Source: Bacteroidota bacterium (GTDB taxonomy: Bacteria > Bacteroidota > Ignavibacteria > UBA10030 > UBA8401). From it: DNA of 43,206 bases. The notes below the pieces were generated by a model, which searched no databases, was not told the origin of the DNA, and saw only the letters and a list, made by a program, of their open reading frames with translations. The position numbers and the translations under genes were made by a program. Below, in pieces: positions 1,283 through 28,509 of this stretch; the first letter of the stretch is position 1; the number at the start of each line of letters is the position of its first letter. The stretch is taken from NCBI GenBank assembly GCA_021796215.1, contig JAJYOK010000025.1:1-43206 (forward strand), written 5' to 3'.

Positions 1283-3517
1283 ATGATTGGGACGATTTTT
1301 TTGATTATAGCTTTTATCGGAGGAGTGGCTGCGGTTGCGGCGTACTACCGGGCGGCAACCGGCAGAACGAATCTGTTATCGCTCGCGCGGATAGGAATGT
1401 ACCTCAGCGCTGTCGGGATTATTGCCGCGTCTGCCACATTATTGTATGCAATTTTGCAGCATGATTTTTCAAATGCCTATGTGTGGGGTTATAGCTCGAA
1501 AAGCCTGCCGCTTCATTTTCTGGTTTCGACATTCTATGCCGGGCAGGAAGGAAGCTTCATGTTTTGGGTGCTGTGTTCGGCAATTCTCAGTTTCTTTTTA
1601 CTTCGCTACACACGCGGGCGTAATCTCGAAGCGCATGTCATGGCGATATTTCTTGCAACGCAGTCGTTTCTGCTGTTGCTTCTTTTGACGAAGTCGCCGT
1701 TCAGATCTATTTGGGACGTCTACGCCGGTCAGATTGCGCCGGGAAACATCCCGCAGGATGGAAGAGGATTGAACCCGTTACTGCAAAATTTCTGGATGGT
1801 CATACACCCGCCAATTCTCTTCATCGGGTTTGCGGCTTCTGCAGTTCCGTTCAGCTTTGCCGTAGCGGCATTGTGGCGAAAAGAATTTACGACATGGCTG
1901 AAAAGTGCGTCGCCATGGATATTATTTTCCGGGCTTGTGCTCGGACTTGGAATTATGCTTGGCGCGTACTGGGCGTACGGCGTTCTTGGCTGGGGCGGAT
2001 ATTGGGGATGGGATCCGGTGGAAAATTCTTCTCTGATCCCGTGGATTGTTTTGATGGCGCTTCTTCATACGGCAATTGTTCAGAAAAAAACCGGACAGTT
2101 GGTGCGGACAAATTTCTTTCTTGCCATTGCAGCATTCGTTCTTGTCCTTTACAGTACATTCCTCACACGGAGCGGTGTGTTAGGTGATGCGTCGGTGCAT
2201 TCGTTCACCGATCCGGGAGCGGTGGTATATACGCTGCTGCTTGCATTCATCGTCGTATTTGCTGTGGTCGGGTTTGGCATGATGATAAGCCGCCGTAAAG
2301 AATTAAAACTGCAAGCATCGCCAATGGGTCTCTTGACGCGTGAAGTTGCCTTAACTCTTGGCGCCGCCGCGTTGGTGTTGATAGCAATTGTTGTTCTGTT
2401 TGGAACAAGTCTTCCGATTTTTTCGAAAGCAACAGTTGACGGCGCATTCTACGATACGGTCACTCTTCCGCTAGCGTTCGCCATTGCGCTGCTTATCGGT
2501 TACAGCTTGAAAGTAAAATGGGAAAGTGAAGATGGAAAAGAGATACTGAAACGTTCGGCAGCATCATTGATTGGCGCGGTGCTTGTTGCGGCTGTAATGA
2601 TGTATTTCGGATTGCATGAAGTAATGGTAATTCTTTTTGTGTTTGCTTCTGCGTTCACCTTGTTTGTGAATGTTGAACTTGCGTACACGATTGCTAAAAC
2701 CGACCCGCGATGGCTTGGCGGAAAAATTGCTCATATCGGTCTGGCATTATTCTTTTTGGGCATCATTACCTCTGCAAAGTATGGAACGAAAGAACAGGTC
2801 GGACTTGAATTGAATTCTCCGAAATCGGTCGGCTCATACACGATGACGTATCTGGGTAACCATCGGATTGAAGGAGACAAGTATGCTTTTGATGTGAACG
2901 TGAAGAGGGGAACGGAGAATTTCACGCTTTCACCGGTTATGTTTCAGACCCAAGAACAAGGTATCATGCGTAATCCGGATATTCGGTCAACGTTCACCGG
3001 CGATCTTTATGTTTCCCCAATTTCAATTGATGAATCTGTTGCGGGTGGCTCTCATGCCGGAGAAATGCTCACATTGAAAAAAGGCGAAACAATCTCTGTA
3101 GGCGATGTTAAAGCAAAGTTTGTGAAATTTCAAATGGGTCAGCACGGAATGGATGCAATGATGGGCGGCGCCGGCGGAATGTCAGTTGGCTCCGTGCTCG
3201 AGCTGAATAACGGCCACGCGAGCGAAACAATTGTGCCGACAGCGGTGTATGCAAAAGACAGCGCACCGCAATATAATGCTGCAGAATCGAAACTGCTCGG
3301 TGCCAACGTTCGGCTTGTTTCAATGAATGTTGATATGGGTTCGAAAGAATCTACGGTTACGCTTGAAGTGCTGCGTCCCGGCGCCGTTCCGCAGCAAAGT
3401 GAAATTTTGAATCTTGAAGTCAACACCAAGCCGTTTATGAATTTATTGTGGAGCGGTTCGGTGTTGTTGTTTATCGGCTTTATTGTTTCGATGATACAGC
3501 GCCGAAAAGAAGCATAA
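1283..3517 (+). CDS. ccmF: cytochrome c biogenesis haem lyase, CcmF/NrfE family
   Basis: This 744-residue polytopic membrane protein has a good ribosome site (GGAGAAGG at 1273-1280) just before ATG 1283. The WWD signature of haem-handling proteins is clear near residues 236-250 (WGGYWGWDPVENSS). Other CcmF hallmarks are the GSFMFW segment (about residues 91-96) and the NFWMVIHPPILF segment (about residues 169-180), which carries a conserved His. Roughly the first 500 residues are hydrophobic helices. The remainder is a soluble, presumably periplasmic, domain with a Met/Gly/His-rich stretch near residue 620, followed by a final membrane helix. It is longer than typical proteobacterial CcmF (about 650 residues). 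By family it attaches haem to apocytochrome CXXCH motifs, which fits the two cytochromes directly upstream. No other ccm genes are visible in the window. Confidence 0.88.
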   Translation: MIGTIFLIIAFIGGVAAVAAYYRAATGRTNLLSLARIGMYLSAVGIIAASATLLYAILQHDFSNAYVWGYSSKSLPLHFLVSTFYAGQEGSFMFWVLCSAILSFFLLRYTRGRNLEAHVMAIFLATQSFLLLLLLTKSPFRSIWDVYAGQIAPGNIPQDGRGLNPLLQNFWMVIHPPILFIGFAASAVPFSFAVAALWRKEFTTWLKSASPWILFSGLVLGLGIMLGAYWAYGVLGWGGYWGWDPVENSSLIPWIVLMALLHTAIVQKKTGQLVRTNFFLAIAAFVLVLYSTFLTRSGVLGDASVHSFTDPGAVVYTLLLAFIVVFAVVGFGMMISRRKELKLQASPMGLLTREVALTLGAAALVLIAIVVLFGTSLPIFSKATVDGAFYDTVTLPLAFAIALLIGYSLKVKWESEDGKEILKRSAASLIGAVLVAAVMMYFGLHEVMVILFVFASAFTLFVNVELAYTIAKTDPRWLGGKIAHIGLALFFLGIITSAKYGTKEQVGLELNSPKSVGSYTMTYLGNHRIEGDKYAFDVNVKRGTENFTLSPVMFQTQEQGIMRNPDIRSTFTGDLYVSPISIDESVAGGSHAGEMLTLKKGETISVGDVKAKFVKFQMGQHGMDAMMGGAGGMSVGSVLELNNGHASETIVPTAVYAKDSAPQYNAAESKLLGANVRLVSMNVDMGSKESTVTLEVLRPGAVPQQSEILNLEVNTKPFMNLLWSGSVLLFIGFIVSMIQRRKEA

Positions 3518-6583: not shown

Positions 6584-6904
6584 ATGATGGACCATTATTG
6601 GACCGCAGTACAAAAAAAAGTATGCACCAAATGCATTGATGGGGACCGCTACGGCGAGTGCAAACTTCCTGTCCAGTTCAAATGTGCACTGAAAGAAAAT
6701 TTCTCCAGCGTTATGCATGTGGTGCAAACCACCAACAGCGACAATGTGCTGGATTACATTGCGGCACTGCGCCGCGAAGTATGCAGCAAGTGTCTTGAAC
6801 AAACTGACGGCACGTGTTACGTCCGCAACTTACTTGATTGCCCGCTCGATCATTATTTCCCGATTATTATTGAAGTGATCGAGGGAATAGCAAAACCAGC
6901 GTGA
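6584..6904 (+). CDS. cysteine-rich protein with two tandem four-Cys modules
   Basis: This 106-residue cytosolic protein has an excellent ribosome site (AAGGAAGGAGG at about 6570). It is an internal duplication. The first half has CX2CX8CX7C (beginning VCTKC) and the second half has CX2CX7CX7C (beginning VCSKC). The Cys sets are each followed by a Leu/Phe-rich helix, and the halves are linked by a helix ending DYIAALRREVCSKC. Eight cysteines in two pseudo-equivalent sets suggest two metal sites, either [4Fe-4S] clusters or structural zinc; the sequence cannot tell which. I cannot name a family. It ends the ferredoxin-AlaDH-CoA-transferase cluster, so a redox or regulatory role in that pathway is plausible but inferred. 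About 250 nt without a gene follow. Confidence 0.68.
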   Translation: MMDHYWTAVQKKVCTKCIDGDRYGECKLPVQFKCALKENFSSVMHVVQTTNSDNVLDYIAALRREVCSKCLEQTDGTCYVRNLLDCPLDHYFPIIIEVIEGIAKPA

Positions 6905-7093: not shown

Positions 7094-7122
7094 TTGACTG
7101 GCAGGGGGAAAACGAGTATCAT
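7094..7122 (+). promoter_or_regulatory. sigma70-type promoter for the TonB receptor operon
   Basis: TTGACT (7094-7099) and TATCAT (7117-7122) are separated by exactly 17 nt, and each matches the sigma70 consensus at five of six positions. Transcription would start near 7129, leaving a leader of about 23 nt with AAGGAG just before ATG 7152. The rest of 6905-7093 shows no gene or convincing structure. Confidence 0.55.
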
Positions 7123-7151: not shown

Positions 7152-9104
7152 ATGAAGAGGTTATTGTTGATTATATGGTTGAGTTCTGGGACGGCGCTTG
7201 CTCAAAGTCATGACGGCAGCGTTGAACAATTTCCGCTTGACTCGCTCCTGAATATTAAAGTCAGCGCAGCCACAAAATACGATCAAACGACAAGCGAAGC
7301 GCCTGCTTCCGTGACGATTATTTCTTCTGAGGAAATTGCCCGCTATGGATATCGCACCCTCAGCGATGTGTTACGAAGCGTGCACGGGTTTTACATAAGC
7401 AACGACCGCAATTATGATTACGTTGGCATTCGCGGATTTGGAAGGCCGACGGATTACAATGACCGCTTGCTCTTGCTGCTGAACGGACACACGTTGAATG
7501 AAGATGTGTATGGTTCGGCGGCAATCGGAACGGATCTTGGCATTGATCTCAGCTCGCTTGATCATATTGAAATTGTCCGCGGTCCGGGATCTGCTGTGTA
7601 CGGCAACAATGCCATGTTTGCTGTTATTAATCTTGTAACGAAGAAAGGAAATGTGATTGACGGCATTCATGTTACTGTTGGCGGAAGCACGCTCAATGAA
7701 AGCACCGCTTCGGTGTTATACGGAAAGCAATTAGACAATGGAGTGAATGTTTTCTTTTCGGGATTATACGATGACATCGAAGGAAAAGATCTCTACTTCA
7801 AAGAATACGATACAGATTCAACCAACCACGGTATCGCTCACCATCTTGATTGGGATAGGTCGTACGGCATTCTTTCGACGGTTTCGTATAACGATCTCAC
7901 GCTGCAATTGTACGGCGTGTCGCGCGAGAAAGGAATTCCTACGGGGGCATTTGATGATGATTTCAATGACCCGTCTGCGAAAACTCTTGACCAGCGCTCA
8001 ATGGTTGAAGTGCAGTATCACACGGCTCTTGCGGTGGACAAGTCGCTGTTCAGCCGCGTCTATCTTGACCACTACGAGTATCGGGGGACATACCCATTCG
8101 AAGGAATTGAAACAAAGGACGCGACAACAGGCAATTGGGTCGGCACCGAGCTGCGAGCGCAATGGGATGTGGATACGAAAAATCGTTTTACGCTTGGAGC
8201 AGAATATCAGCAGCATCTTCATGCTGACTACCATTTTTGGGATCCGACGCAAATCTATTTCGACGGGAACTTTCCGTACTCTCTTTTTTCGTTATATGTT
8301 GAAGACGAACACCAGCTGTCTGAAAATTTGTCGTTGTCGCTTGGCATTCGCCGCGATGAATACTCCAACGATGTAGAGGCGACAACACCGCGTGTTGCTG
8401 TGTTGTACTATCCGGCAGCATCAACAACTCTCAAACTGCTGTACGGCGAGGCGTTCCGCGCGCCGAATATTTATGAGGTTGATTATGCCGATCCGGTTTC
8501 CGGTTTCAAAGCAAATCCTGCTCTTCGTCCGGAGCGGATTCGCACGGCGGAGCTTGTTTGTCAGCAGCGCATCGCAGAAGGCATAATCGGCAGCACGTCC
8601 TTGTTCGATAACCGCGTAACAAATCTGATAGATCAAAATATTGATCCGCTTGATTCAATGTTTCAATTTCAAAATGTGAGCGTTGCGCATGCGAGCGGAG
8701 TTGAAGCTGAATTGACTTTGAGAATCTATCCGGAAATTCAGAGCTATATCAATTATACTTATGAATATGCAAAAGATGATAACTCCGGCAAGAAATTAAC
8801 AAATTCTCCGTCGCATCTTTTCCGATGCGGCGCGAGCATTGATTTTCTTGAGGGAAATTCAGCGGCAATTACCTTCGATTATGAATCGAGCCGCATCACA
8901 CTTGAAGGAACACAAACGGATCCATATTTGATTACGGATGTCAACTTTTTGTCCCGAAAGGTTCTTGATCATTTCAAAGTTTCAGCTTCAATCAGCAATC
9001 TCTTCAATGTTTCGTATGCAACGCCCGGCGGATTTGAACATAAGGAAGCGGCAATTATTCAGAACGGGCGGGTATTTTTTGCGAAGCTGGAATACATTTT
9101 GTAG
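7152..9104 (+). CDS. TonB-dependent outer-membrane receptor
   Basis: The protein has 650 residues from ATG 7152; a TTG directly before it is less likely, and AAGGAG lies upstream. A cleavable signal peptide ends around ALAQS. The plug domain covers roughly residues 45-160: ASVTIISSEEI, then LSDVLRSV, a VGIRGF turn, LLLLNGHTLN and IEIVRGPGSAVYGNNA, all standard TonB-plug motifs. The remaining 480 residues are beta-barrel-like, with alternating aromatic strands, and end in an aromatic-hydrophobic strand (KLEYIL). Such receptors import a scarce ligand, or sense it, using TonB energy; the ligand is not identifiable. The next two genes encode a YfiR-like periplasmic protein and a hybrid kinase, so a sensing function is at least as likely as bulk uptake. 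Confidence 0.88.
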   Translation: MKRLLLIIWLSSGTALAQSHDGSVEQFPLDSLLNIKVSAATKYDQTTSEAPASVTIISSEEIARYGYRTLSDVLRSVHGFYISNDRNYDYVGIRGFGRPTDYNDRLLLLLNGHTLNEDVYGSAAIGTDLGIDLSSLDHIEIVRGPGSAVYGNNAMFAVINLVTKKGNVIDGIHVTVGGSTLNESTASVLYGKQLDNGVNVFFSGLYDDIEGKDLYFKEYDTDSTNHGIAHHLDWDRSYGILSTVSYNDLTLQLYGVSREKGIPTGAFDDDFNDPSAKTLDQRSMVEVQYHTALAVDKSLFSRVYLDHYEYRGTYPFEGIETKDATTGNWVGTELRAQWDVDTKNRFTLGAEYQQHLHADYHFWDPTQIYFDGNFPYSLFSLYVEDEHQLSENLSLSLGIRRDEYSNDVEATTPRVAVLYYPAASTTLKLLYGEAFRAPNIYEVDYADPVSGFKANPALRPERIRTAELVCQQRIAEGIIGSTSLFDNRVTNLIDQNIDPLDSMFQFQNVSVAHASGVEAELTLRIYPEIQSYINYTYEYAKDDNSGKKLTNSPSHLFRCGASIDFLEGNSAAITFDYESSRITLEGTQTDPYLITDVNFLSRKVLDHFKVSASISNLFNVSYATPGGFEHKEAAIIQNGRVFFAKLEYIL

Positions 9105-9143
9105 AAGGTTATTTCCGACGTTTTCGAAAGAAACTTCGCGCCA

Positions 9144-9713
9144 GTGAAACGTATTTTTTCTCTCATAGTGTTTTGCGGGATAGCTCTGCATTCGGCAACA
9201 GCGCAGGAAATGGCTGTGCCGGTAGAAGTGCAGTATCCGTTGTTTTTGAAAATCGTTACATTTGACCGCAATTTTCAAGCACGCGTTGGACAGGAAGTTG
9301 CTGTCGGGATTTTGTATCAGAGCGAATACCGAAAATCTTTCAATGTCCGCAATACGCTTATCGACATTATAAACAACTTTCCATTGCACAATATTGATGG
9401 AATTCCGATTCGGTATGTTTCCATAGACATGTCGGTCGAAACCGATCTTCGGGCGGCAATTGAACGAGAAAAGATAAACCTCATGTATGTCGCACCGCTG
9501 CGGGCGGCAGACATTGCGGCAATTACAGAAGCTTCTCGGGAAAAGCATGTACTGACACTCACAGGCGTGCCTGATTATGCTGATGCAGGTATTTCAGTCA
9601 GCATAGATGTTAGAGGAGACAAACCTCTTATTGTGATTAATCTTCCTGAGGCAAAAGCAGAGGGAGCAGACTTCGATGCTCAATTATTGAAATTAGCAAA
9701 AGTAATTCAATGA
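9144..9713 (+). CDS. YfiR-like periplasmic protein (DUF4154)
   Basis: This 189-residue protein starts at GTG 9144, chosen because it directly precedes a signal peptide (MKRIFSLIVF to SATAQ). The mature domain fits the YfiR/DUF4154 fold: a start EVQYPLFLKIVTFDRNF, a central VAVGILYQSEY strand and a late GVPDYADAGISVSI segment, ending with a helix DAQLLKLAKVIQ. In Pseudomonas, YfiR is a periplasmic repressor that holds the diguanylate cyclase YfiN inactive through YfiN's periplasmic domain. Here the next gene, overlapping by 4 nt, is a histidine kinase with a comparable periplasmic domain, so the regulated output is probably phosphorelay rather than c-di-GMP. The cysteines that stabilise Pseudomonas YfiR appear to be absent from the mature part. 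Confidence 0.72.
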   Translation: MKRIFSLIVFCGIALHSATAQEMAVPVEVQYPLFLKIVTFDRNFQARVGQEVAVGILYQSEYRKSFNVRNTLIDIINNFPLHNIDGIPIRYVSIDMSVETDLRAAIEREKINLMYVAPLRAADIAAITEASREKHVLTLTGVPDYADAGISVSIDVRGDKPLIVINLPEAKAEGADFDAQLLKLAKVIQ

Positions 9714-12067
9714 CTCGAGAATTTCCTTACAGAGAAAATTCAATTCCCGGGCCAAAGCCGCGCCGCGCTATTCGGATACGGCTTGCACTTTTTGTATCGC
9801 TGCTGCTTGGCACAATTTCGTTGTTCATTTTTTATTATCTCCCTTATACACTTGAACAGCAGGCGCTTCACGCGATTGCTGATAAAGCGCAAAGTATTGC
9901 CAGCATGACTGCCTACAATATAAGTCCGGCATTGTTTTTTGGAGATGTCAAAGCGGCGGATGAGGCATTTCATAGCGCATTACAATCAGGAGACGTTGTT
10001 TACATCGTAGCACGTGATGAATCGGGGAAAGCCTTTGACGCTCACTTCAATGGGAAAGCCGGAGAAGAAGCATACCACGAATACACATCGAGCGGACATG
10101 TTTCAGCGGATGGGACGGTGTTTAGTACGTCGGCGCCCATTCTTCACAATGGGAAAAAACTAGGAACACTTATCCTCGGCATTTCACTGAACAGTTTAAA
10201 GAAGGAGATTCATGACAGCCGTGCCGCGATTGCGATTCTCAGTCTCGTTTTGTTTATCATCAGCATTCTTGTCGTTTTTACTATCATTACCATTACAACA
10301 AAACCGCTCAGTGATATTGTTGAAACGGTGGAGCAAATTGCCTCAGGCGATTTAAGCCGGCGGGCGCCGGTTGCAACGACGGATGAAATCGGTCATCTGG
10401 CTTCTTCATTTAACCTGATGGTTGATCATCTTACCGATGCGCAGGCTGCACTTGAGAAGGCAAATAAGAATTTAGAGCATCGTGTTGAAGAACGAACGAA
10501 AGCGCTGCAGCGTGAAATTATCGAACGCGAGCAGGCGGAAGAAGCGCTGCGCGCAAGCGAAGAACGGTACCGGCGTTTTTTTGAAGAGGATCTTTCAGGA
10601 AACTTCATTGCAACTGTTAACGGAAGAATTCTCGCTTGCAATTCTTCGTTCGTACGTATTTTCGGCTTCTCATCTGTAGATGCTGTGCTTGCATCGAATT
10701 TGCGGCTTCTGTTTCCGTATGAAACCGCCATGGATGATTTATTTGAATTGTTGCGCCGTCACCGCAAATTAGTATATCATGAAGCAGAACTCCGGCGGGC
10801 AGACGCTTCAACATTGTCAGTTATTGAAAATGTTATCGGCACATTTGACGATGAGGGACGCCTTGTTGAGGTTGAAGGATACGTGTATGATAATACGAGC
10901 CTCAAAAAACTGGAGGACGAATTTCGCCAGGCGCAAAAGATGGAAAGCATTGGTACCCTTGCCGGCGGCATTGCCCATGACTTCAATAATATTCTTGCAA
11001 TTATCGTCGGGTACACTTCGTTATTACTTGGTGATAATACAGACCGTGGTAAATTCCAAAAATGGGTTGAAACTATTCGTGATGCTGCAGAGCGAGGCTC
11101 TGGTTTGGTCCGCCAATTGCTGACGTTCGCGCAAAAAGATACTGTCCGGGTAGATCGCATTGACGTGAATGATGTCATTAGCGATGTTGTGAAAATGCTC
11201 GCAGAAACATTCCCTAAGACGATTACTTTTGAAACAAACTTCGGAAGAGATGTTAAAAATATTTATGCCGATCACAGCCAGCTTCACCAAACGATGTTGA
11301 ATTTATGTGTTAACGCTCGCGACGCTATGCCGGATGGCGGAGTTATTGCTATTGCAACAGGCACGATGGAAGGAACAACTTTGCGCCAGCTTCGCTCTGA
11401 AGCGCAAGCATCTCAGTATGTTTTTATCAAGGTAACGGACAACGGTACGGGTATTAATGAAACAACACGCACAAGAATCTTTGAGCCTTTTTTTACGACG
11501 AAAGAACGCGGGCGAGGAACGGGCTTGGGACTTGCCGTAGTATATGGCGTGATGAAAAGTCTTAACGGATTTGTTGAGGTGACAAGCGAAGTCGGACAAG
11601 GAACGACGTTCACATTATTTTTCCCGGTTTCAGAAGGTGTGTTAACAGAAGTTGAAAATATAAAACAGCCAAATGGAAAGACCGAAGGCGGCAACGAGAC
11701 ATTGCTTATTGTCGAAGATGAGGAAAAATTAGTTGAATTGCTTCAGACTTTTTTAGGCGCAGCAGGGTATCATCTTCTTTCAGCGAAGGACGGCGAAGAG
11801 GCAATCGAGCTTTACAAACGCAAGCATCAAAATATTGCGTTTGTATTGATTGATGTTGATCTGCCGAAACTTTCAGGGAATGAAGTTTATCTGAAAATGA
11901 AAAAACTAAATCCGGATGTTAAAGCAGTTCTTGCCAGCGGTAACATCGAGCCTGCCGTTCTCAGGAAAATGAATGCTGAAGGAATTTGCGGTTTCCTTCC
12001 CAAGCCGTATGACCTTGGTCAAATCCTCAGAAAAATCCGCGAAGTGCTCGACGCCCCCAATTCATAA
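9710..12067 (+). CDS. hybrid sensor histidine kinase (CHASE8-like, HAMP, PAS, HisKA, HATPase, receiver)
   Basis: The protein has 785 residues and its ATG overlaps the yfiR-like stop. Domains in order are: membrane helix about 23-45; periplasmic sensor 46-170, resembling the CHASE8 domain of YfiN (ASMTAYNISPALFFGD); second helix 172-195; HAMP about 196-248; a coiled coil; PAS about 283-400; HisKA with phosphoacceptor His423 in GGIAHDFNN; and HATPase with N-box NARDAM, DNGTGI and GRGTGLGLA. A C-terminal receiver follows, with acidic Glu669/Asp670, phospho-acceptor Asp715 and Lys765. All catalytic residues are present. The target could be a downstream regulator not encoded here, since no DNA-binding response regulator follows. 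The coupling with the YfiR-like protein and the TonB receptor makes a three-compartment signalling chain likely. Confidence 0.88.
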   Translation: MTREFPYRENSIPGPKPRRAIRIRLALFVSLLLGTISLFIFYYLPYTLEQQALHAIADKAQSIASMTAYNISPALFFGDVKAADEAFHSALQSGDVVYIVARDESGKAFDAHFNGKAGEEAYHEYTSSGHVSADGTVFSTSAPILHNGKKLGTLILGISLNSLKKEIHDSRAAIAILSLVLFIISILVVFTIITITTKPLSDIVETVEQIASGDLSRRAPVATTDEIGHLASSFNLMVDHLTDAQAALEKANKNLEHRVEERTKALQREIIEREQAEEALRASEERYRRFFEEDLSGNFIATVNGRILACNSSFVRIFGFSSVDAVLASNLRLLFPYETAMDDLFELLRRHRKLVYHEAELRRADASTLSVIENVIGTFDDEGRLVEVEGYVYDNTSLKKLEDEFRQAQKMESIGTLAGGIAHDFNNILAIIVGYTSLLLGDNTDRGKFQKWVETIRDAAERGSGLVRQLLTFAQKDTVRVDRIDVNDVISDVVKMLAETFPKTITFETNFGRDVKNIYADHSQLHQTMLNLCVNARDAMPDGGVIAIATGTMEGTTLRQLRSEAQASQYVFIKVTDNGTGINETTRTRIFEPFFTTKERGRGTGLGLAVVYGVMKSLNGFVEVTSEVGQGTTFTLFFPVSEGVLTEVENIKQPNGKTEGGNETLLIVEDEEKLVELLQTFLGAAGYHLLSAKDGEEAIELYKRKHQNIAFVLIDVDLPKLSGNEVYLKMKKLNPDVKAVLASGNIEPAVLRKMNAEGICGFLPKPYDLGQILRKIREVLDAPNS

Positions 12068-24574: not shown

Positions 24575-26725
24575 TTATTTTTTCTTTTTTGCCGCCTTCA
24601 TCTCTATGTGGTGTTGTGCCGGCTTTATTGATTGTTCTGTGTGAACTCCTGCCGCTTCGATTTCATCGGCGAGTGTTTTGGCATCGTAAATTTTCCGAAG
24701 ACACTCCATCATTGCTCCGGTGTGTACAGAAACGGCGCGATTGGCGGTTTCATCGTACACAAATCGCCCCGGCAAACTTTCGATGTCGCCGTCGAAGATC
24801 ACGCCGATCAATTCTCCTTTTTCATTGATCGTTGGCGAGCCGGAATTGCCGCCGATAATATCGCATGTGCTGACAAAATTCATCGGCGTCGCAAGATCAA
24901 GCTGGTCTTTCCGTTCGAAGTAGCGTTTTGGCAAAGCGAAATCACCTTCGTTATTGAAGCTCAGAGCCCGGTCAAACAAGCCGTACATTGTTGTTTTTGC
25001 CGGAGCGACGGTGCCGTTCATCGGATAGCCTTTCATTGTTCCGTAGGAAAGGCGCAAGGTGAACGTTGCATCAGGATAAACAGTTTTGCCGTACGCAGCG
25101 AAGCGTGCTTTTCCGATGAGTTCGCTGGCTTCATCAATGGTGCTTGTGACATTCGTCTCTCTCCATTTTTGCAACGCTCTCGCCATCGGATTAATTTTTC
25201 GCGTCAGCACGATGAGTGGATCGGTAGAAGCGTTGACCGCCGCTTCACCGCCTTCGATGAGTTCTTTGCGCACTTTTGGATCGGCTAATTTTGTGCCGTT
25301 GATTAGTTCTTTTGCAACCTCTTGCGGTGTTTGTTTTCCGAGTACAGTTTGAATCCACGGATTGTTCTGCCCTAATTCTTCGAGCGATTCTTCCAGACCG
25401 TCTTCAAGAGAATATTCTTCAAGATCGCTGTACACCGGAGCAGGGGAGAAGAGAGAAAATTTGAGCGACGCGAGTCTTGCGTCCTGAAACCGTGCAAGAC
25501 GTTCTCCATCTGGTTTCTTAATCTCTTCGACATATTCAACAATTGTCGAAGCGATACTCGCCAAACGTCCGCGAAGACCTTGATAACTTGATTGCTTGAA
25601 CATTGATTTTGAACGTTCAATTGCGGCGGAAACGGAATCCCACGCGCTGCCGTACTTCGCTTTCCATTCCGGATTGCTGTTCACTTTTTCGCGGAATGCG
25701 GTCTCTTCTTCCTGTCTTTTTGCGATAAGCGCAGTATCGAGCAAGCCTTTGTATTCGCCGCCCCATGCTTTCAATGCATTATTAATGCCGAACATTTGCA
25801 CCAACGCGCGCCGTTCTTGTTCGGGTCCGAGTTTTGAGTACCGTTTCAACATCGCAACGCGGCGATTAAATAATTTAAAACGGAAAGGATAACTGTAATC
25901 GCGAAGGTATTCAAGCTGCGTCATTGTTTCAAGCCGGTCGGTGGAGCCGGGATTTCCCGAAACGAAAACCAAATCTCCATCATTCGCGCCGGCTGAATTC
26001 CATTTCAGATAATTTTCGCTGTGAACCGGTTTGCCGTTTTCGTACACGCGGAAGAACGCCATATCGAGATCATAGCGCGGATATGTAAAGTTGTCTGCGT
26101 CGCCGCCGAAGAATGCAATTTGCTGTTCCGGCGCCATCACCAAGCGGATATCAGTATATTTTTTATAGCAATACAGCCAGTATTCGCTTCCCTGATAAAG
26201 CGAAATCACATCCGAACGTAATCCTGTTTTTTCGAGACTCTCTTTTGTGATCTTCGCGATTGCCGCTTTGCGGGCATCGAATGCTTCTTTCGGTGTCATT
26301 GCAGGCTTCACTGCGCCTAATATTTCGGAAGTAACATTTTTCATAGACATCAACACATTCAACTCAAGGTCGGGGCATTTCAATTCTTCTGCCTCAGTTT
26401 TTGCGTAGAATCCGTCGGTGACATAATCTTTTTCTTTTGTCGAAACTTTTTGCAATTGACCGAGCGCGACATGGTGATTGGTCAGCACCAGTCCGTTCGG
26501 GCTGATAAATGAGCCGGAGCCGCCGTCGTTGAAACGTACGCTGGAAAGGCGAACGTGGTCTAACCATTCCTGCGTGATAGTGAAATTGTATTTCTCTTTG
26601 AGCTGCTTCGCAGGCGGGTTGTCGAACGTCCACATTCCCTCATCGGCGCGGGCGGTCGCAAATAGCAGCATAGTACTGAACAGAAATGTGAGCCATAGGC
26701 GTCCAGCGATAAAACGATGTTTCAT
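24575..26725 (-). CDS. S46 family dipeptidyl-peptidase (DPP7/DPP11 type)
   Basis: The protein has 716 residues from ATG 26725, selected because AGGAGA lies just upstream and a signal peptide follows (MKHRFIAGRLWLTF to ATARA); a longer frame from 26845 crosses a terminator. The chymotrypsin-like catalytic set is visible: His in TNHH (84-85), Asp221 in the DLDMAFFRVY segment, and Ser628 in GNSGSP. The residue after FD in VIFDGD is Gly, which in characterised S46 enzymes goes with preference for hydrophobic P1 (DPP7), whereas Arg goes with acidic P1 (DPP11). The enzyme removes dipeptides from peptide N-termini in the periplasm and is characteristic of Bacteroidota and some proteobacteria that feed on protein. 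Confidence 0.92.
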   Translation of the reverse strand: MKHRFIAGRLWLTFLFSTMLLFATARADEGMWTFDNPPAKQLKEKYNFTITQEWLDHVRLSSVRFNDGGSGSFISPNGLVLTNHHVALGQLQKVSTKEKDYVTDGFYAKTEAEELKCPDLELNVLMSMKNVTSEILGAVKPAMTPKEAFDARKAAIAKITKESLEKTGLRSDVISLYQGSEYWLYCYKKYTDIRLVMAPEQQIAFFGGDADNFTYPRYDLDMAFFRVYENGKPVHSENYLKWNSAGANDGDLVFVSGNPGSTDRLETMTQLEYLRDYSYPFRFKLFNRRVAMLKRYSKLGPEQERRALVQMFGINNALKAWGGEYKGLLDTALIAKRQEEETAFREKVNSNPEWKAKYGSAWDSVSAAIERSKSMFKQSSYQGLRGRLASIASTIVEYVEEIKKPDGERLARFQDARLASLKFSLFSPAPVYSDLEEYSLEDGLEESLEELGQNNPWIQTVLGKQTPQEVAKELINGTKLADPKVRKELIEGGEAAVNASTDPLIVLTRKINPMARALQKWRETNVTSTIDEASELIGKARFAAYGKTVYPDATFTLRLSYGTMKGYPMNGTVAPAKTTMYGLFDRALSFNNEGDFALPKRYFERKDQLDLATPMNFVSTCDIIGGNSGSPTINEKGELIGVIFDGDIESLPGRFVYDETANRAVSVHTGAMMECLRKIYDAKTLADEIEAAGVHTEQSIKPAQHHIEMKAAKKKK

Positions 26726-26756
26726 GAAATTGTCTCCTATCATGTTTAGTTTGAAA

Positions 26757-26793
26757 TGAAAAATGCCGTTCATCATACTGCGCTGCGAACGGC
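26757..26793 (-). terminator. intrinsic terminator of the Rossmann-protein gene
   Basis: On the minus strand TGCCGTTC and GAACGGCA form a perfect 8-bp stem with a 15-nt loop, followed by TTTTTC. It begins 7 nt after the stop of the 26800-28509 gene and separates it from the S46 gene. Confidence 0.78.
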
Positions 26794-26799
26794 AGTGAA

Positions 26800-28509
26800 T
26801 TACGCCTTCATTCGACTTCCTTTTTCTTCTTCCGAAAAAATCCATCCGACAATTTTTCCCGGATCGATTTCTGTAAAGTTTTTCCAGTATTCATGGTTGC
26901 GGAAATATCGCGAACTGGTTTCAGTCTCCTTCAGGTTTTCTACTGTTGTAATTGCCGCTGTGAACCGGGCTTTCCATCTTTCCATGTTCGACGCGCGAAG
27001 ATCTACCCATCCACTCTCCGCCCACCGGTCAATTGCTGATTTCGTGAGCGAGATCTCGTTCTGTCCGCGGTACGGAGGAACTTTGATTTCGTTTCCCCGC
27101 AACAGTGTTTTTCCGTCTGGAAGAAGTATTGGGATGCCGATGGAAATAATTTGTGCACGCAATGCCTGATTGTCGCGCACAATTACGGCAAGCGTGTCGG
27201 AAAGCTGTTTTGGTTTCGTTTTCACAACTTGCTGTACCGACGTGAAACCAAGTTTTAGCAAATATGCTTCATACAGCAATTTTGATAAACGCGGCGGTCC
27301 CAAGATTTCGAACGCAACGCTGTCAACGCTGTGTTCCTTTTCGAGCGTTTTCATTTTTTCCAGCGCTCCCTGGAACATAAATCCGGCGCGGTACGTCGGT
27401 TCGAGCGTTGCATTGTCGAGAGCGTTGATAATATCGTGTCCGGTGTTGCCGCCCATAATTTCATACAACACATCCTGTGCAATTTCTTCCGGCGTGACGA
27501 ATTCCATCTGTCCCGGCGTTGAAATCGCTTCGAATTCTCCGCGCGAAAAAATCCCGTTTTCGCCGGTATCAATGAAAACCGATTGCAGCGGCTTGTTCAG
27601 CGGAATATCGGGGCGTGTTTGAGGTTTAATGCGGAACGTTTTTTCCAGCACCACTCCGTTTTCAATCGGACAGTCGAACAACTCGATCGGTTTGCCTCGT
27701 TTCGAGATTGTTCCGTAATCAATTTTTTTCCACGCAATCGCTCCGGTCGGTTTTATTTCTTTTGTAATTGGCGCGTCCGGTGTGCGTGCCATGAGAAAGA
27801 GAAGGAGCGTGTGTGCGCCCGCTACCGATGACTTGCTGAGCAGAACGCTCGACGGCTTTTCCTCACTGTGTGTGTACGGAATGTTCAATCCCATTCCGCC
27901 GGTTCCGCTTGTTCCGATTTTTATATAGATGTTCGTGCCGACTTCGTGCATCGAGCGGTAAAAGGTTTGTACATGCCGGATGATTTGCGGGATATACAAT
28001 GTTGCCAAAAGCCGCTCGACGGATTCATCCAAGGAAAACTCTGCCTTATCCTTACCGTGCCGGAGATGATGCATCACATCGCGAGCGCTTTGAAAAATAT
28101 CCTGATAGGCGATTGCGGTTGCCGAGTTGATGCAGTCAATGACGATATGCGGCTTGTAATGGCTGAGCAAATGAAATATAGCCGAACGATGGACCACTCC
28201 GTCGCTGAATTCTTCGAGAATATCGTCAATGTGCAGTGCGCGCCGTTTTGGGTCTCCAAGAATTTCTTCCCGGGTAAAATCTTTCAACTCGTGGCGCATG
28301 AAGATGTTTCCCCACCACGGAATGAAAAACTTTTTTCCCGCCAATGGAAATTCCTTCTCCATATGCGCGACTGCATCTTTTGCTTCCGATTCTTTTAACG
28401 ACGTGATGATCATCTGTTTGGGATGAGCTTCCATAAGTTTTCTACATACAGCGGAACCAACAAGTCCCCATCCGCCAAGCACGAGAACGGTTTTGTTCTG
28501 AATATCCAT
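26800..28509 (-). CDS. large NAD(P)-binding Rossmann protein of unknown function
   Basis: This 569-residue protein begins with a dinucleotide-binding turn, VLVLGGWGLVGSAVC (residues about 8-22), like extended SDR/saccharopine-dehydrogenase-type enzymes. A later strand, PHIVIDCINSATAIAY, resembles the region where SDRs hold the cofactor. The remaining 400 residues are rich in charged helices and match no family that I can name. A GTSGTGGMGLNIPYTHSEE stretch near residue 210 looks like an active-site or phosphate-binding loop. There are no membrane segments and no signal peptide. Upstream and on the same strand is a YbjQ-like gene. It has its own terminator. Dehydrogenase, epimerase or dehydratase activity on a large substrate is possible. 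Confidence 0.65.
   Translation of the reverse strand: MDIQNKTVLVLGGWGLVGSAVCRKLMEAHPKQMIITSLKESEAKDAVAHMEKEFPLAGKKFFIPWWGNIFMRHELKDFTREEILGDPKRRALHIDDILEEFSDGVVHRSAIFHLLSHYKPHIVIDCINSATAIAYQDIFQSARDVMHHLRHGKDKAEFSLDESVERLLATLYIPQIIRHVQTFYRSMHEVGTNIYIKIGTSGTGGMGLNIPYTHSEEKPSSVLLSKSSVAGAHTLLLFLMARTPDAPITKEIKPTGAIAWKKIDYGTISKRGKPIELFDCPIENGVVLEKTFRIKPQTRPDIPLNKPLQSVFIDTGENGIFSRGEFEAISTPGQMEFVTPEEIAQDVLYEIMGGNTGHDIINALDNATLEPTYRAGFMFQGALEKMKTLEKEHSVDSVAFEILGPPRLSKLLYEAYLLKLGFTSVQQVVKTKPKQLSDTLAVIVRDNQALRAQIISIGIPILLPDGKTLLRGNEIKVPPYRGQNEISLTKSAIDRWAESGWVDLRASNMERWKARFTAAITTVENLKETETSSRYFRNHEYWKNFTEIDPGKIVGWIFSEEEKGSRMKA

Follow-up and report, generated by a model that had tools for sequence, protein, structure and literature searches.

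A TonB-dependent receptor, a YfiR-like protein and a CHASE8 hybrid kinase as a candidate variant of the YfiBNR envelope signalling module

Reporting from the outer membrane to the cell interior by a TonB receptor is known from surface signalling of the FecA/FecR/FecI type. A different arrangement is found in the YfiBNR system of Pseudomonas aeruginosa, where YfiR is presented as a bridge between outer and inner membrane, with one conserved surface that serves both partners and with the cyclase being repressed (PMC4655355). Another point of reference is the pair of NCBIfam families named after the receptor TOL_0244 and the YfiR-like protein TOL_0243, whose consecutive locus numbers resemble the neighbourhood described here. 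TOL_0244 is up sevenfold on the alkane n-C28 and was compared with OmpS of Alcanivorax dieselolei, which is reported to be needed for alkane detection (PMC6304351). The paired names indicate that the receptor/YfiR-like neighbourhood has already been noticed.

We analysed a stretch of 43,206 nucleotides (the window), which is one entire contig of a 3.37 Mb Bacteroidota genome. Its genes for a TonB-dependent receptor, a YfiR-like protein and a CHASE8 hybrid kinase may form an envelope signalling module with three components. It would be a variant of YfiBNR that has the receptor at the place of YfiB and the kinase at that of the cyclase; we give this reading roughly an even chance of being right. 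The trio probably represents a seldom described route for a signal across the cell envelope, given its recurrence in several phyla and the co-evolution of its components.

Layout of the locus and properties of its proteins

The features of the locus are collected in Table 1. AAGGAG sits 8 nt 5' of the receptor ATG (7152), the YfiR-like frame opens with GTG 39 nt past the receptor stop, and ATGA at 9710-9713 confirms the 4-nt overlap by which the first-pass annotation had coupled the YfiR-like gene to the kinase gene. An alanine dehydrogenase gene, an acetyl-CoA hydrolase gene and two small ORFs lie 5' of the trio and a pyruvate:ferredoxin oxidoreductase gene lies 3', and the gaps of about 245 nt on either side suggest a stand-alone operon. 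Across the region 15 promoter-like sites were found versus 8.6 (sd 2.9) in shuffles, using a consensus that does not cover Bacteroidota promoters. Also 5' of the trio, at 6584-6904, is a small cysteine-rich ORF of 106 aa, for which Pfam gave nothing up to E 1. Elsewhere the window holds a CcmF-type cytochrome c biogenesis gene and a peptidase S46 gene (1283-3517 and 24575-26845), which are unrelated to the trio.

Table 1. Features of the trio locus, in positions of the window
Feature	Position	Strand	Evidence or remark
Promoter-like site TTGACT-17-TATCAT	7094..7122	+	Weak evidence; 10/12 consensus matches
TonB-dependent receptor	7152..9104	+	ORF and Pfam; alternative TTG start 7149
Pre-plug segment FPLDSLLNIKV, candidate docking segment over the expected TonB-box position	7230..7262	+	Putative role
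Receptor plug	7293-7622	+	Pfam Plug
YfiR-like periplasmic protein	9144..9713	+	DUF4154 match 9456-9701; signal peptide; mature part without Cys
CHASE8 hybrid histidine kinase	9710..12067	+	ATGA overlap with YfiR-like gene
CHASE8 periplasmic sensor domain	9878..10177	+	Pfam; Cache-type fold in model
HAMP domain	10292..10435	+	Pfam
HisKA and HATPase_c, phospho-acceptor His423	10952..11632	+	Pfam and motif position
Receiver domain, Asp715	11705..12037	+	Pfam and motif position

The receptor, one of 22 plug-domain proteins in the genome, matches Pfam Plug (E 7.4e-19, beginning at residue 49) and barrel (E 7.9e-40), and no N-terminal STN domain was found by Pfam at E up to 1. Its best NCBIfam match is TOL_0244, at 144.1 bits far under the curated cut-off of 645, and a haem-receptor model reaches nearly the same score (141 bits). 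Because the top models tie and the scores stay so far below the cut-offs, a ligand guess from the receptor family was rejected and we draw no alkane inference. The flanks of 31 trios from the surveys below, with 222 ORFs, gave no ligand hint either; besides signalling proteins, which recur in 9 loci, they share just four families of unassigned identity, seen in 3-4 loci.

Within its family the YfiR-like protein is divergent, since only its second half is matched by Pfam (PF13689, E 8.1e-11, 42.6 bits vs cut-off 24.9, covering model positions 65-143 of 143). It is the only place in the genome with a PF13689 match, its best NCBIfam match is TOL_0243 (29.6 bits, again far under the curated cut-off of 125), and profile A4 finds the PDB YfiR at E 1e-17. 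The whole-protein model (pLDDT 91) superposes on Pseudomonas YfiR 4zhu with Z 14.8 over 143 residues at 2.7 Å, and it likewise matches substrate-binding proteins, namely 3lkv (Z 16.2) and 6k1x (Z 15.3, 145 residues, 2.8 Å). The sole cysteine falls within the signal peptide, so a disulfide switch like that of Pseudomonas YfiR cannot operate here, and we rejected a redox switch for this protein.

In the kinase, Pfam finds CHASE8, HAMP, PAS, HisKA, HATPase_c and REC in this order. The first-pass annotation had proposed a CHASE8-type periplasmic domain at residues 46-170; the Pfam profile matches residues 57-156 with 38.1 bits vs a cut-off of 27, and hydrophobic segments at 23-41 and 174-192 make the proposed borders about right. 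This kinase is the single CHASE8 match above cut-off in the genome, which has one further, weak match. A model of the periplasmic part has a Cache-type fold (pLDDT 88); its matches to many Cache domains are of middling quality, so we do not claim a nearest relative. His423, Asp715 and Lys765 lie in the expected positions of what we take to be the kinase and receiver motifs. Of the proposed phosphorelay with a built-in receiver, the REC domain is intact, but a multistep relay is doubtful, as PF01627 (Hpt) had 0 matches at E up to 0.01 in this genome, which is listed as 100% complete (controls positive 8/14). The receiver may therefore act inside the kinase or signal by another route. The sole GGDEF match of the genome lies on another contig.

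Recurrence of the trio and co-evolution of its parts

The expectation that receptor, YfiR and CHASE8 kinase genes would occur together elsewhere was borne out in several bacterial phyla. A Pfam search for YfiR in 198 Bacteroidota genomes gave 34 places in 26 genomes, 33 of which were examined (the window counted, G008 left out). A full-length receptor and a CHASE8 kinase adjoin YfiR in 14 of these. Three more have a CHASE8 kinase and a different receptor-like neighbour of about 880 residues, four a YfiR-kinase fusion beside a receptor, two (L034, L035) YfiR and a CHASE8 kinase but no visible receptor, and four a receptor and YfiR with CHASE8 not seen. The remaining six YfiR places have neither receptor nor CHASE8, which counts against the module. 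Near the YfiR gene of L044 (4628-7865) we saw a HAMP-SpoIIE phosphatase gene, possibly another output, and no receptor or CHASE8.

A second survey started from the receptor, the YfiR alignment A1 being too divergent as a query, and covered the best 80 of >543 relatives in named genomes, with neighbours identified by six-frame scan. Among these best 80, YfiR lies within 2.5 kb of 15/21 receptors with E < 1e-100, of 7/15 and 5/7 in the following classes and of 2/37 with E > 1e-30; YfiR and CHASE8 together were found near 12/21, 5/15, 2/7 and 1/37. Close and distant receptors differ accordingly (Fisher, 1.9e-7 for YfiR linkage and 3.5e-6 for the trio), with one of the 21 close receptors, L066, being a row of the query alignment. 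Beside 6/21 close receptors, some of them on short contigs, YfiR was not seen, which again counts against the module. The lone trio among the distant receptors, L124 from Rhodoferax, has a CHASE8-GGDEF protein and no kinase. By record labels, loci with YfiR and CHASE8 come from Bacteroidota, Gemmatimonadota, Acidobacteriota, Planctomycetota, Verrucomicrobiota, Geobacter and Proteobacteria. The counting profiles for CHASE8 and YfiR were grown from the very loci counted; with Pfam CHASE8 at E up to 0.001, 7/10 partner kinases checked were matched, 4 of them above cut-off, and L034, L055 and L061 were not.

Nine proteobacterial genomes were added, which are not a random sample because they were picked from the receptor loci for carrying related receptors. 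Out of their 27 YfiR places 24 were fetched, and these include receptor-YfiR-CHASE8-kinase loci (L181, L185, L188, L189 and, with the kinase core in an ORF of its own, L180), receptor-YfiR-CHASE8-GGDEF loci (L183, L187), seven YfiR-kinase fusions, and YfiR with a CHASE8 protein but no receptor seen adjoining (L184, L194, L197, L199). Tandem receptors of this type were observed in L101, with a YfiR-CHASE8 pair upstream of two receptors, and in L144, with three receptors near two GGDEF proteins.

Co-evolution was analysed in 31 trios that have receptor, YfiR, CHASE8 and kinase core together, a requirement that keeps them from sampling YfiR genes at random; L066, which is the same locus as L059, and L050, closely related to L031/L032, had been dropped beforehand. 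The order receptor-YfiR-kinase on one strand is kept in 26/31. Tree distances of YfiR and CHASE8 correlate with rho 0.81 (0/2000 permutations), which equals the split-half reliabilities of the two parts (YfiR 0.80, CHASE8 0.77), whereas the kinase catalytic core, with a reliability of 0.76, correlates at 0.03 with YfiR and at 0.11 with the CHASE8 domain of the same kinase. Leaving out one locus at a time changes little (0.80-0.83 for YfiR and CHASE8, 0.04-0.15 for the core). Both trees split identically into 10 window-like and 21 canonical trios, with Bacteroidota in both groups, and within the groups the correlation is 0.56 (p 0.0095) and 0.75, respectively. Thus, YfiR and the sensor half of the kinase stay together while the catalytic half is exchanged. 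Conservation of the gene trio and the specific co-evolution of YfiR with CHASE8 are well supported.

The receptor follows less closely. Its correlation with YfiR over the 31 trios is weak, 0.33 (p 0.001), a figure uncorrected for shared descent by a species tree; it is 0.24 (p 0.037), also weak, when CHASE8 is held, and that of receptor and CHASE8 with YfiR held is -0.05 (p 0.66). Against a simple chain, receptor and CHASE8 (0.50) correlate slightly better than receptor and YfiR (0.41) within the canonical group. Among the window-like trios, the receptors of L051 and L061 fall outside the clade that holds the remaining eight.

YfiR fusions, the pre-plug segment and the role of the receptor

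Further hints on where YfiR acts come from fusion proteins. The window itself has none, but the phylum survey and the proteobacterial genomes together contain 11 YfiR places with an open frame of >600 residues, 6 of them from one genome (G201), and all 11 join YfiR to a kinase via a linker of 140-175 residues and one TM helix. The linkers are poor in proline plus glycine (0-5%), rich in charged/polar residues (47-60%) and have a dominant hydrophobic period of 3.5 in 10/11, with a permutation p <0.05 in 9/11 (not L048, L192); the CHASE8 region of the window, taken as control, has none of these traits. The linker start LLGGTEIDVAxLYRExQxSLRxLQ is conserved in L046, L047, L048, L049, L192, L196, L198, L210, L211 and L212. 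A CHASE8 domain hidden between YfiR and the TM helix was rejected because the segment is coiled-coil-like, and Pfam found no CHASE8 in the four fusions checked. At a rise of about 1.5 Å per residue the linker would measure 210-260 Å, close to the usual distance between inner and outer membrane, so that this mostly heptad-patterned segment could reach across the periplasm. If the N-terminal hydrophobic stretch of the fusions is a cleaved signal peptide, YfiR would be placed at the outer membrane. A receptor of this kind adjoins 9/11 fusions, and the idea that a TonB receptor gene supplies the outer-membrane partner thus agrees with its frequent position beside YfiR-CHASE8 kinases, fused forms included. 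In L057 (7326-8630, minus strand) a gene neighbouring a TonB receptor encodes CarboxypepD_reg, TonB_C and DUF4154 in a single chain. Sequences related to the N-terminal portion of this protein were found next to YfiR-like matches at four more places (two in G133, one each in G087 and G005), but in L060, the one such place checked by Pfam, TonB_C had no match at E 0.001, and a recurrent TonB_C-YfiR link beyond the L057 fusion is not established.

YfiR-linked receptors carry the pattern LxL[DE]xLLxIxVxxASK in front of the plug. A profile trained on 19 phylum receptors and tested on L065-L144 scores >3 bits in 27/29 YfiR-linked vs 19/53 unlinked receptors (Fisher 3.6e-7, kinship ignored, several unlinked receptors being on short contigs); it replaced a regex that misplaced many segments, and six receptors with CHASE8 but no YfiR nearby as well as receptors with a cut N-terminus were left out of the test. 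By eye, the other 21 pre-plug segments of the window's genome are without the pattern, and several have classical VVVTATR-type stretches. The 19 unlinked receptors with the motif weigh against the module. The segment could bind YfiR, could serve as a variant TonB box, or could combine the two roles.

A plausible sequence of events would be that the TonB-dependent receptor senses, and may import, a ligand at the outer membrane, that its state alters the availability or conformation of the periplasmic YfiR-like protein, and that the latter docks on CHASE8 and so sets the activity of the hybrid kinase. Ligand and output are presumed here, as is a direct contact of the YfiR-like protein with the receptor, and by analogy with YfiBNR it may act as a repressor. 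The receptor as functional outer-membrane partner is moderately supported. A more specific version we put forward tentatively, as possible and well short of probable: LxL[DE]xLLxIxV at the periplasmic mouth would be a YfiR docking site overlapping the TonB box, and ligand-driven exposure and TonB binding would gate YfiR. The latter would come in two forms, free as in the window or kept at the outer membrane by a kinase-fused coiled coil that spans the periplasm. This would be a third way of TonB-receptor signalling, using neither an STN domain nor a sigma factor.

Alternatively, the receptor is a transporter only, while the YfiR-like protein, related to substrate-binding proteins but with a single domain, binds the imported ligand and reports to CHASE8, and the kinase adjusts receptor expression. 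The model resembles one- and two-domain substrate-binding proteins as much as 4zhu, no receptor was seen in L034 and L035, genes for one-domain substrate-binding proteins are described near chemotaxis-receptor genes (PMC10805632), and Thalassolituus TOL_0244 is called a likely alkane uptake receptor (PMC6304351). However, both the long fusion linker and the TonB_C-YfiR fusion put YfiR close to TonB or at the outer membrane, positions that ligand binding does not require; we consider this account unlikely, if worth keeping in mind.

It is also conceivable that YfiR and the CHASE8 kinase respond to envelope stress as an ordinary pair of the YfiBNR kind, with another outer-membrane partner and with the receptor as a merely co-transcribed target. 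That the correlation of YfiR with CHASE8 is far above that of receptor with YfiR (0.81 vs 0.33) fits this, as does the exchange of the receptor in L051 and L061, but one receptor subfamily is linked in seven phyla (by record labels), and its position beside most fusions and the pre-plug motif also speak against it, which makes this reading quite improbable. Receptors and kinases are common, with 22 plug domains in this genome, and a chance neighbourhood of genes without joint function might be invoked, but the 4-nt overlap, the recurrence and the co-evolution contradict it and leave it next to no probability.

Comparison with known systems

The envelope module that we favour shares with YfiBNR a YfiR-family periplasmic protein and an inner-membrane partner with a CHASE8-type/PAS periplasmic domain and HAMP. 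The differences concern both ends and the connecting protein. YfiBNR has a GGDEF cyclase as output, the trio a HisKA-HATPase-REC hybrid kinase; the outer-membrane gene of YfiBNR encodes the OmpA-like lipoprotein YfiB, whereas that of the trio encodes a TonB receptor, and OmpA had no match among the 8 proteins scanned between 3807 and 15915. The two conserved cysteine pairs of the YfiBNR YfiR are missing from the window's protein. The loci with a TBDT, YfiR and CHASE8-GGDEF (L124 from Rhodoferax, L183 and L187) have the same receptor, YfiR and CHASE8 parts with GGDEF in the place of the kinase, and are a bridge between YfiBNR and the trio. YfiBNR itself is already known, and we found no description of its variant with receptor and kinase in the open-licence literature, the one paper listed for DUF4154 and the seven for CHASE8 included, a body of text that mostly excludes subscription papers.

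Compared to FecA/FecR/FecI, the trio has a receptor without STN signalling domain and no sigma/anti-sigma pair. The fold of the YfiR-like model is also that of the one-domain substrate-binding protein 6k1x from Rhodothermus marinus, whose gene context is described as chemotaxis receptors (PMC10805632). The trio is a compact, recurrent and testable candidate for the way in which TonB receptors without signalling domain could report to the cytoplasm. YfiBNR would then belong to a larger group of systems that keep YfiR and CHASE8 matched and exchange the outer-membrane partner (OmpA-like protein or TonB receptor) as well as the output (cyclase or kinase).
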